Assembly: GCF_020172665.1 (NCBI RefSeq)
Contig: NZ_CP083985.1
Span: 3,033,830 to 3,097,829 of the forward strand
Reading direction: 5' to 3'
DNA length: 64,000 nucleotides
From: [Mycobacterium] zoologicum
GTDB taxonomy: Bacteria; Actinomycetota; Actinomycetes; Mycobacteriales; Mycobacteriaceae
In this document: piece by piece, positions 51,491-53,885 of the stretch
Layout of the letters: each line of letters opens with the position of its first letter
How positions within the stretch are numbered: position 1 is the stretch's first letter
Made by a program: the position numbers and the translations under genes
Notes under the pieces: model-generated
What the model was told of the DNA's origin: nothing
Databases searched by the model: none
Seen by the model: only the letters and a program-made list of their open reading frames with translations

Positions 51491-51958
51491 TCACACCGCC
51501 GTCAGCAGCCGATTCACACAGGTGACGACGGCATCCACGGCCGACGCCCCGGCGTCGGGCGCGAAACCCACCGCCCAGGCCGTAGAGCGACCATTGGAAC
51601 CGTGGATGAATGTCGCTGTCTCGGCGCCACAGGCAAGCTGGTGAAATCCTAGGATTTCCAACCTGATTCCACGTTCGTACAGCATCGCGGTGAGTGCGCC
51701 CAGCGGGCCGTGCGCCGCTGCCGTGCAGGTACCGGTTCGGTCTCCGATGGAGATCGTCGCCTGATAGGTGCGGCCCTGTATCCCCAGCCGGGCAGCGGGC
51801 CGGTCGGAATCCAGGCAGCGCCACCGACCCAGCCGCAACGGACCGGAGCAGCGACCGTAGGTGGCCACGAAGCCTTCCCGGGTGAGCTGGGCGGCTGGGT
51901 CGCGCAGCTCACGCGGGAGTCGGGTGTCGAATTGGTCTGCGAAGGATGTACTGGTCAT
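51491..51958 (-). CDS. orphan LeuA allosteric-domain protein
   Basis: The 155-residue protein lacks the catalytic TIM barrel of isopropylmalate synthase. Its C-terminal two thirds resemble the LeuA leucine-binding (dimerisation) domain: QATISIGDRTGTCTAAAHGPLGALTAMLYERGIRLEILGFHQLACG, then ATFIHGSNGRSTAWAVGFAPDAGASAVDAVVTCVNRL. The sequence GPLGALTAML corresponds to the GNGPxDA motif. It probably binds leucine or a related amino acid and may act as a regulator (inference). It is preceded by a putative attenuator with a Val-rich leader peptide. Confidence 0.78.
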   Translation of the reverse strand: MTSTSFADQFDTRLPRELRDPAAQLTREGFVATYGRCSGPLRLGRWRCLDSDRPAARLGIQGRTYQATISIGDRTGTCTAAAHGPLGALTAMLYERGIRLEILGFHQLACGAETATFIHGSNGRSTAWAVGFAPDAGASAVDAVVTCVNRLLTAV

Positions 51959-51995
51959 GTTGCGGTCTTTTCTGCTCGAAGAGAGCGACCGACGG

Positions 51996-52078
51996 GTAGT
52001 AGCCTCCGACCCACAGCGGGGGGTCGGTCTGGATCAGACCCCGCTGCGGGTGCCGGCTACTACGACTAGGTGACGCAT
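51996..52078 (-). promoter_or_regulatory. putative translated-leader attenuator upstream of LeuA-domain gene
   Basis: Two nested perfect-type stems: GTAGTAGCC (52055-52063) with GGCTACTAC (51996-52004), and CAGCGGGGTC (52037-52046) with GACCCCCCGCTG (52014-52025, two extra C). A competing stem CCGACCC (52021-52027) with GGGTCGG (52006-52012) overlaps the second one, so the structures are mutually exclusive. The 5' arms lie inside the leader ORF. A promoter-like TTGATA/CATAAA pair with 18-bp spacing (52147-52152, 52123-52128) precedes it. Confidence 0.65.
52034..52078 (-). CDS. leader peptide with consecutive Val codons
   Basis: A 14-codon frame reads MRHLVVVAGTRSGV and stops at TGA. Leu-Val-Val-Val are consecutive, and the Val6-Val7-Ala8 codons form the 5' arm of the outer attenuator stem. 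Such leaders precede branched-chain amino acid genes in actinobacteria. A GGGTGA sequence lies a few bases before the ATG. No direct evidence of translation is available. Confidence 0.6.
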   Translation of the reverse strand: MRHLVVVAGTRSGV

Positions 52079-52148
52079 GATGTCACCCAGGCTAGTGACG
52101 TGTCCGCCGGAGGTGCAAGCCATTTATGCACTGGTATCGAGATCGATA

Positions 52149-53885
52149 TCAATTCAAGATGCGCCGGGCCACATTGGTGGTCACCAGGTCGAGCAACTCG
52201 TCGGCGCGGCCGGCCAGGATGGTCCGGATCGCATAGAGCGAGAATCCCTTGGCCTGCTCGGCGGTGATCGCCGGCGGGATCGACAGTTCCTGGCGGGCGG
52301 TGACGACGTCGACGACGGCCGGGCCATCGTAGGCGAACGCCTCGGTGAGGGCCGCTTCCAAATCGGCGGGCTGTTCCACCCGTCTCCCGAACATGCCCAG
52401 CGCTGTCGCTACCGCGCCGAAGTCGGGGTTGTCCAGCTCGGTGCCGAAATTGACGATGCCGGCGGCCTTCATCTCCAGTTCGACGAAGTTCAGCGACGAG
52501 TTGTTGAACACGATCATCTTGACCGGCAGCCGGTTCTGCCTCAGCGTGAGCAGCTCCCCGAACATCATCGCCAGCCCGCCGTCGCCGGCCAGCCCGATCA
52601 CCTGCCGGCCCCGATCGGCGGTCTGCGCGCCGATCGCATGCGGCAGTGCGCACGCCATGGTGCCGTGGTTGAACGAGCCGATCAGCCGCCGTCGTCCGTT
52701 CATGGTCACATACCGTGCCGCCCACACCACCGGGGAACCGACGTCGACGGTGAACACCGCATCGTCATCGGCCAGTCGATTAGCCACCGCGGCAACATAT
52801 TCCGGCCGGATCGGGGTCCGGTCCCGGTCGTTGGCCGCCAACGAGTCCAGCCGTCGTCGGGTCTTGGCGTAGTGCCGCAGCGACCGCTCCAGATGGGTGC
52901 GGTCGGTCTTGGGCGCCAACAGCGGCCGCAGTGCGGCGACGGTGTCGGCCACCGTGCCGCGCAGCCCCAGATCGATCGGGGTGCGCCGACCCAGGTTTCG
53001 GCCGCGGATGTCGACCTGGATGATCTGCGCGCGATCGGGATAGAACTGCTGGTAGGGAAAGTCAGTGCCCAGCATCAGGAGCAGGTCGGCTTCGGCGATC
53101 GCCTTGTAGCCGGACGCGAATCCGAGCAGTCCCGTCATGCCCACGTCGTGAGGATTGTTGTACTCGATGTATTCCTTGCCGCGTAACGCGTGCACGACCG
53201 GTGCCTGCAGGGCGCGCGCCAAGTCCATCACCTGGTCGTGGGCGCCGGCCACCCCGGCACCGGCCAGGATGGTGACCCTGTCCGCGGTATTGAGCATGCC
53301 CGCCGCCGCAGCCAGCCCGCGCTCGTCGGGGCGGCACACCGAGGCGGTCGGCCGCACCGGACGCTGCCCCCAACCGGTGGCATCCAGGCGGTGGCTGAAG
53401 ATCTCACCGGGCACCACCACCACAGCGACGCCGCTCTCCTCCACCGCCGCGCGCATCGCCATCTCCAGGATTCGTGGCGCCTGTTCGGGAGTGCTGATCA
53501 GCTCGCAGTAGACGCTGCACTCGCGAAACAGGTTCTGCGGGTGGGTTTCCTGGAAGTAGTCCGAGCCGATCTCGGCCAGCGGGATATGGGCGGCGATCGC
53601 CAGCACCGGCACCCGGCTTCGGTGCGCGTCGAACAGCCCGTTGATCAGGTGCAGGTTGCCAGGACCGCAACTGCCGGCACACACCGCCAGCCCGCCGGTC
53701 AGGGCGGCATCAGCGGCAGCGGCGAATGCTGCGGTCTCCTCGTGGCGAACCTGTTCCCAGCTGAAATCGCCGGCCCGGCGGATCGCATCGGTGAAGCCGT
53801 TGAGACTGTCCCCCGGGATGCCGTACACGCGGTGCACCCCGCTGCTCTGCAGGGTGGCGATGACGTGGTCTGCGACGGTTGCCAT
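52149..53885 (-). CDS. poxB: thiamine-diphosphate pyruvate dehydrogenase (quinone)/oxidase PoxB-like
   Basis: The 578-residue protein has the ThDP-enzyme triad: N-terminal GIPGDSLNGF with the catalytic Glu in RHEETAAFAA, the central FAD-type Rossmann domain, and the C-terminal ThDP motif GDGGLAMMFGELLTL...NN. The RHEETAAFAAAADA and GPGNLHLINGLFDAHRSRVPVLAI segments match PoxB. It should decarboxylate pyruvate to acetate, passing electrons to quinone at the membrane. AGGAGG stands six bases before the ATG at 53885. Confidence 0.9.
   Translation of the reverse strand: MATVADHVIATLQSSGVHRVYGIPGDSLNGFTDAIRRAGDFSWEQVRHEETAAFAAAADAALTGGLAVCAGSCGPGNLHLINGLFDAHRSRVPVLAIAAHIPLAEIGSDYFQETHPQNLFRECSVYCELISTPEQAPRILEMAMRAAVEESGVAVVVVPGEIFSHRLDATGWGQRPVRPTASVCRPDERGLAAAAGMLNTADRVTILAGAGVAGAHDQVMDLARALQAPVVHALRGKEYIEYNNPHDVGMTGLLGFASGYKAIAEADLLLMLGTDFPYQQFYPDRAQIIQVDIRGRNLGRRTPIDLGLRGTVADTVAALRPLLAPKTDRTHLERSLRHYAKTRRRLDSLAANDRDRTPIRPEYVAAVANRLADDDAVFTVDVGSPVVWAARYVTMNGRRRLIGSFNHGTMACALPHAIGAQTADRGRQVIGLAGDGGLAMMFGELLTLRQNRLPVKMIVFNNSSLNFVELEMKAAGIVNFGTELDNPDFGAVATALGMFGRRVEQPADLEAALTEAFAYDGPAVVDVVTARQELSIPPAITAEQAKGFSLYAIRTILAGRADELLDLVTTNVARRILN

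Follow-up and report, generated by a model that had tools for sequence, protein, structure and literature searches.

Upstream of leuA, the LEU element described by Seliverstov et al. (2005, PMC1262725) combines a leader peptide containing a leucine run with a hairpin and a pseudoknot helix. Its mechanism was left open in 2005, as the leader codons looked meaningful and the mutations were ambiguous. The ilvB1 attenuator of Mycobacterium tuberculosis (PMC13236596) has a branched-chain amino acid (BCAA) leader peptide, the regulatory codon GUA, mutually exclusive structures, and a U-tract terminator. Here we describe a leader RNA in a 64,000-nucleotide stretch of [Mycobacterium] zoologicum (contig NZ_CP083985.1, positions 3,033,830 to 3,097,829; hereafter the window) that precedes an orphan gene (51491–51958; this and all other features of the window given here lie on the minus strand) encoding a 155-residue protein composed of the LeuA linker subdomain II and the C-terminal regulatory domain, without the TIM barrel. 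Judged by its sequence, the orphan leader RNA and the LEU element are paralogues, the orphan leader carrying Val codons of the rare kind GTA where the LEU element has its Leu run, and we consider it fairly probable that the orphan RNA gates translation of the orphan LeuA regulatory domain through a Val-codon-gated switch between two pairings of a single RNA segment.

In terms of architecture, the orphan leader and the LEU element share the leader peptide, the hairpin, the pseudoknot helix, and the position of the stop codon, whereas the Leu run of the LEU element corresponds to Val-Val (GTA GTA) in the orphan leader, and the LEU element precedes the whole LeuA enzyme rather than the regulatory domain alone. 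The orphan locus also shares the BCAA leader peptide, the regulatory codon, and the mutually exclusive structures of ilvB1, but no U-tract terminator was found there. Read directly from the sequence, the leader open reading frame (ORF; 52034–52078) starts with an ATG at 52078, ends with a TGA at 52036–52034, and encodes MRHLVVVAGTRSGV, with the codons GTC GTA GTA. The GTA GTA GCC codons (segment A, 52055–52063) form the 5′ arm of a base stem in which GTAGTAGCC (52063–52055) is perfectly complementary to GGCTACTAC (52004–51996); the latter is segment E (51996–52004), the 3′ arm, which varies among relatives, and the stem ends 37 nt upstream of the gene start. It is the ribosome-binding site, in place of E, that pairs with the codon run in the LEU element (PMC1262725). 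The main hairpin is formed by segment B (CCCGCAGCGGGG, 52050–52039), within the leader ORF, and segment D (CCCCGCTGTGGG, 52021–52010). The loop segment C (GACCGAC, 52023–52029) is the pseudoknot partner of segment F (GTCGGTC, 51987–51993), the toggle segment, which can pair either with C or with segment G (GACCG, 51963–51967), directly upstream of the start codon; a purine-rich AGAAAAG (51967–51973) lies at the 5′ side of G. The 126-nt leader folds at −58.9 kcal/mol, compared with −40.8 ± 4.0 kcal/mol in shuffled sequences (n = 200; z = −4.54; 0 as good), and exhibits codons of the regulatory type together with mutually exclusive structures. No Rfam family reached gathering level in the window, and the leader gave only chance-level matches (E up to 10).

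The relationship to the LEU element is visible within the genome itself, where the leuA leader (MQRVLLLGRRGGA, GTG start) is followed by the same RNA body as the orphan leader. A model built from 62 sequences (R1) matched only the orphan locus (E = 5.3e-26) and leuA (E = 1.5e-8) below E 0.01 in this genome, with 150 of 3747 first-look candidates scored. Across genomes, R1 matched the stretches upstream of leuA in 17 of 21 cases at E ≤ 7.3e-6 (L200, L208, L213, and L217 did not reach that level), and of six further matched places in other genomes five lie ahead of leuA or a leuA copy and the sixth (L228) ahead of an orphan gene; no third kind of gene was found downstream of the element among these six. 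A joint alignment, A3, of 17 leuA and 23 orphan rows (leaving out L217, and L200, L208, and L213, in which no element was recognised) contains 55 double-change cells, compared with 21.4 in shuffles (0 of 500 as high) and at most 11 when the partners were slid by 1–3 columns. Pair 34–67 of helix B–D is GC in 17/17 leuA rows and AU in 21/23 orphan rows, and pair 57–101 of helix C–F is GC in 16/17 leuA rows and AU in 19/23 orphan rows (GC in 3). Between the paralogues, base changes are compensatory in B–D as well as in C–F.

A third match of R1 in the window's own genome (E = 0.012) was taken as chance, since no leader could be recognised in its sequence. One genome (G424) has several LeuA-like genes, with LEU elements before two of them (L201 and L226) and none recognised before another (L200).

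Among orphan genes, the leader is strongly conserved. It was found by eye directly upstream of the gene in every one of 30 genus loci (29 relatives besides the window's own) and by model match (E ≤ 5.6e-20) in 80/80 named loci, the best 80 of 256, some of which contributed sequences to the model that matches them. Of the 80 named loci, 77 have GTAGTA and the remaining 3 have one GTA; Val codons were seen at all genus loci inspected for them. These two sets are free of selection for GTA, whereas the sets chosen by pattern (the 70 representatives and the promoter set) demand GTA upstream of arm B and so contain it by selection. Of the 1287 Val codons in 32 ORFs of the window, 45 (3.5%) are GTA; these ORFs were chosen for high GC at third codon positions, which lowers the GTA share. 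The leader C-terminus is RSGV in 123/141 leaders at loci chosen by pattern. Alignment A2 comprises 62 of the 70 representatives (L073, L081, L086, L093, L094, and L096, mainly with long spacers, and L106 and L148 were left out); in it, 95.3% of the cells of helices B–D and C–F are paired, and 20 cells show double changes, compared with 3.8 in shuffles. The pattern used for picking representatives missed 32 loci, of which ten were later put to the model and all matched.

An earlier note on this DNA, made from the sequence alone, had drawn attention to the leader and its stems and to translated-leader control ahead of a LeuA regulatory-domain gene. Leader and stems are present where the note placed them and recur in the genus and named loci above, and this type of control is supported by the conserved Val codons. 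The Val part of its proposed Val/Leu codons holds, but Leu is not constant (for example MRYPVVVVDTHSGV in L004 and MRYPIVVASTRSGV in L007); the inner stem is real but, as given, has a 2-nt bulge and belongs to the longer helix B–D. The compensatory changes that it proposed to look for upstream of orthologues were found in B–D and in the pseudoknot helix C–F. Its competing stem, CCGACCC (52027–52021) with GGGTCGG (52012–52006), was rejected as the main switch: C–D pairs in 94.5% of cells, but its covariation score does not exceed that of shuffles (0.040 versus 0.042), with one double change. That note missed the pairing of F with either C or G, the promoter immediately ahead of the leader ATG, and the kinship with the LEU element.

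Outside the genus, the standard element was seen by eye at 26 of 36 places and a Corynebacterium-like variant at five (L070, L075, L084, L085, and L091); L088 and L092 are doubtful, L095 is leuA itself, and no element was seen by eye at L087 and L097. The labels Corynebacterium-like, Nocardia-like, and Dietzia-like are guesses rather than tool results. In the Corynebacterium-like variant, the leader peptide ends NPGGG..D, arms B and D are both changed (GGTGGAGG with CCTCCA), a GTA codon follows CGA, and GGACC lies ahead of the gene start; B–D is above shuffles in 7/7 such loci (p 0.000–0.067). Within the family, R1 matched 136 of 151 genomes at E ≤ 0.01, counting either the orphan or the leuA element, and 10 of the 15 unmatched genomes belong to the small-genome group g6. 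With 9 candidates scored in each genome, a search of the order with the orphan protein gave a match in 91/397 genomes; the 12 of these that lie outside the family contain full-length LeuA frames only (611–645 residues), whereas short stand-alone LeuA-like frames were seen within the family. The corresponding genus search matched 193/198 genomes, with LeuA itself counted in.

Segment F is complementary both to C and to G, which reads GACCGGC in many relatives. The C–F duplex has a mean energy of −10.4 kcal/mol. In isolated folds of the RNA that begin at F, 60 of 62 sequences pair the final 4 nt of F with downstream bases at p > 0.5; F forms on average 4.54 bp with the start window, compared with 1.29 in dinucleotide shuffles, 57/62 sequences exceeding their own shuffle mean, and the motif pair GGTC...GACC occurs in 49/62. 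For the window's own sequence, pairing of the start window falls from 0.51 to 0.22 when F is blocked. This second partner by the start codon is a feature of the orphan leader, as F–G in LEU elements (n = 16) is not above shuffles (4.89 versus 4.56, from mononucleotide shuffles over a longer stretch and hence not strictly comparable with the orphan test).

The putative promoter lies immediately ahead of the leader ORF. Our own looser finder placed a −35-like element, TTGCAC, at 52113–52118 and a −10-like element, TAGCCT, at 52089–52094, 10 nt ahead of the leader ATG, and an ATAAAT block (52122–52127) 3 nt upstream of the −35 matches the WhiB7-type motif as defined in PMC10727445. The A/T block at this position is what the locus has in common with the WhiB7 regulon promoters of that report; the orphan locus adds a leader of the amino-acid type, and WhiB7 binding in the window's species is predicted from the motif. 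Among relatives, −35-like and −10-like boxes end 6–10 nt before the leader start codon in 141 of 142 distinct upstream regions, with TTGC in 135/141 and a spacer of 18 (82), 17 (57), or 16 nt (2), although these counts are no test by themselves, since the finder takes the best site. Independent of the finder's scoring is the count of A/T at three or more of the four positions −8 to −5 relative to the −35, found in 99/126 distinct sequences compared with 10/126 for the control positions −13 to −10 (related sequences are not independent), and in 15/25 rows outside the genus. An A/T block resembling the published WhiB7 motif lies close to the −35 of most of these predicted promoters. The genome has seven WhiB matches, one of which (L236) ends with a C-terminal RGRP AT-hook.

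The orphan gene of Mycobacterium abscessus is likely MAB_3424c. In two relatives, leuA lies at 0.32–0.34 Mb and the orphan gene at 3.47–3.51 Mb on the minus strand, and a 149-residue M. abscessus protein is 82% identical to the orphan of one of them. For comparison with M. abscessus positions, we take aspartate kinase to be a neighbour of leuA. Since these positions fit those in the table of WhiB7 chromatin immunoprecipitation (ChIP) results (MAB_3424c at 3.47 Mb, aspartate kinase at 0.34 Mb; PMC10727445), MAB_3424c is the likely orthologue. In M. abscessus, a WhiB7 ChIP peak lies upstream of MAB_3424c, named "2-isopropyl malate synthase," and its RNA is 2.04-fold lower in a whiB7 mutant (PMC10727445). 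The Mycobacterium chelonae orthologue of MAB_3424c shows a log2 fold change of 3.2 in a double lysogen with raised whiB7, and the part of that report dealing with the gene lists no M. tuberculosis orthologue (PMC8191103). A ribosome-protected upstream ORF (uORF) has been observed ahead of MAB_3424c (PMC4974804).

From the computed homology, conserved helices, codons, and promoter pattern we infer the transcription start, the gating by the ribosome, and the direction of the switch. Transcription from the WhiB7-type promoter would start at most a few bases away from the leader ATG, giving a nearly leaderless transcript. With a ribosome stalled at GTA GTA, or with the leader untranslated, hairpin B–D would form and its loop segment C would pair with F in the pseudoknot, so that F would be unable to cover the start region and the gene would be translated (ON). 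With plentiful charged tRNA-Val, the ribosome would reach the leader stop and mask B and C, and F would then pair with G, the near copy of C beside the start codon, blocking translation (OFF). The assignment of ON to stalling and OFF to completion would follow from the ribosome footprint, about 26 nt centred on the codon (PMC13236596): counted on the sequence, a ribosome on the first GTA leaves C and nearly all of B free, whereas at the leader stop it hides C entirely and B for the most part.

Several observations weigh against this C–F/F–G switch. Codon-dependent control at the orphan locus is a proposition drawn from sequence, and in Streptomyces coelicolor, as told in PMC1262725, codon mutations in the ilvB leader had no effect and those in the leuA leader had an effect inconsistent with classical attenuation. 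F is mostly unpaired in L065 and L066, the exceptions among the 62 sequences folded from F onward, and forms at most 2 bp with the start window in 7/62; the gain in start-window pairing from F is moderate (mean 0.65, compared with 0.47 with F blocked; n = 62). The conservation of C–F could stem in part from other constraints, as several of its pairs never vary, and in the Corynebacterium-like loci C–F is above shuffles in only 2/7 (p 0.010 and 0.003; others 0.137–0.95). A stricter sigma-70 consensus scan reported no promoter in 51850–52250. Finally, the orthology of MAB_3424c is deduced from position and similarity, and PMC4974804 labels the gene leuA.

Of the alternatives, transcription attenuation, in which the structures would choose between read-through and termination (Rho-dependent or at an atypical hairpin) as at mycobacterial ilvB1, appears unlikely. 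The combination of a BCAA-codon leader peptide with mutually exclusive hairpins is consistent with it, M. tuberculosis ilvB1 works in this manner with a U-tract terminator (PMC13236596), and Rho-dependent ends leave no simple sequence mark. However, a promoter/terminator consensus scan of 51850–52250 found no terminator-like site and no hairpin with a U-run (0 found), and the 3′ helix F–G overlaps the start region instead of lying ahead of a U-run; a read-out at translation initiation is therefore likelier than classical termination. Distinctly less probable is the notion that the pseudoknot is a protein-binding site, as Seliverstov et al. proposed for the LEU element, and the codon run only a helix arm. 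The strong conservation of the RNA and the S. coelicolor mutations without effect or with inconsistent effect, for which a protein partner was proposed (PMC1262725), are in its favour, but the Leu run was swapped for Val codons together with the downstream gene, and GTA is kept where its helix partner E varies.

That the nascent LVVAxRSGV peptide itself stalls the ribosome, like small-molecule-sensing arrest peptides, is improbable in spite of the RSGV terminus noted above: the RSGV codons constitute arm B of the hairpin, so RNA pairing accounts for their conservation, the Corynebacterium-like variant has a different terminus with B and D changed together, and LEU leader peptides end, for example, in RRGGA or RRDGV. 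We give even less credence to reinitiation, in which leader translation would merely bring ribosomes to the gene without sensing amino acids. Such reinitiation at leaders has been proposed for actinobacteria (PMC4833913), with a reported peak at 10–11 bp, whereas the distance from leader stop to gene start is 59–120 nt, mostly 70–76 nt, in the 70 representatives, and reinitiation leaves the covarying helices unexplained.

The orphan protein shares with LeuA (PDB 1sr9 and 3fig) the fold of linker subdomain II and regulatory domain, as identified by a fold search, and differs from it by the lack of the catalytic barrel, altered leucine-site residues, and a shortened loop. The 155-residue ORF aligns only to LeuA residues 434–643. 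No significant hit came from a PDB search with the sequence by itself (best E = 0.34), a profile search gave LeuA at E = 0.012, Pfam gave no match at E 0.001, and NCBIfam TIGR00970 matched at E = 2.1e-6, far below the family cut-off. Residues G531, A536, V551, Y554, A558, A565, and A567 of the LeuA leucine site (list from PMC2704214) correspond in the orphans to A; A/G/S; I/M/T; F; Q; a gap; and T, and the changes G531 to A, Y554 to F, and A558 to Q, at leucine-binding or feedback positions, occur in 21/21 aligned orphans. Thus, of the "leucine-binding-domain protein without the catalytic barrel" put forward in the earlier note, the absence of the barrel stands, but leucine binding is doubtful.

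For the history of the gene and the function of its product, we infer the following. As both leader and protein domain are leuA-like, the simplest history is a duplication of leuA (leader and regulatory end) with loss of the barrel, which is probably how the orphan gene arose. Its product most likely acts on BCAA metabolism, the simplest guess being that it modulates LeuA in trans. In M. abscessus, loss of LeuA leucine feedback raised leucine and countered norvaline (PMC11057210); by analogy, an orphan domain with changed leucine residues could join LeuA dimers and lift feedback reversibly. Tentatively, and with more doubt than belief, we propose that this leucine-blind copy of a LeuA domain is a trans-acting desensitiser, made only under WhiB7 translation stress and Val-codon stalls, that would pair with LeuA regulatory domains and lift leucine feedback; its switch would be a LEU element that was duplicated, with Val in place of Leu as the sensed codons and with the pseudoknot partner present once more at the start codon to serve as read-out. 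The position of a Val-coding leader and a conserved, leuA-related RNA switch ahead of a gene for the regulatory end alone suggests that, under impaired translation, mycobacteria and related bacteria produce an additional regulator of the leucine pathway. WhiB7, which controls the response to drugs that block translation, would also be linked to amino-acid supply through a protein without the catalytic half, from a gene family annotated as "hypothetical protein" or, in several relatives, "homocitrate synthase."

Compared with the LEU element, the orphan leader is a naturally occurring exchange of Leu codons for Val codons that comes with a downstream gene of its own and a recognisable read-out, segment F having two near-identical partners, one in the loop and one at the start codon; together these allow a direct test of ribosome-gated pseudoknots. 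The uORF (PMC4974804) and the WhiB7 target status (PMC10727445) of MAB_3424c are already published. A search of a literature collection found no publication in it on the orphan domain or its RNA element, and the passages on MAB_3424c in the three papers that mention it describe neither the RNA element nor the missing barrel.

Leaders at the Nocardia-like loci (L072–L074, L076–L078, L081, L083, and L086) run to about 43 codons and keep the C-terminal core VV.RRSGV. The orphan leader at L228 (443–540) contains a Val-Val block twice (MKRILVVRRLVVQGRRGV), and its B arm is shortened. Genome G267 has, besides L096, a second stand-alone LeuA-like frame with no recognisable leader element (L097). Orphan-protein matches in G031, G110, G113, G173, and G188 were reported with one internal stop codon, which may reflect decay of the copy, a frame effect, or a sequencing error. 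Directly upstream of the leader in the window, on the same strand, lies a pyruvate dehydrogenase (ubiquinone)-like gene (NF006591, 52149–53957), whose C-terminal end is found again ahead of the orphan gene at most of the close loci L003–L013.

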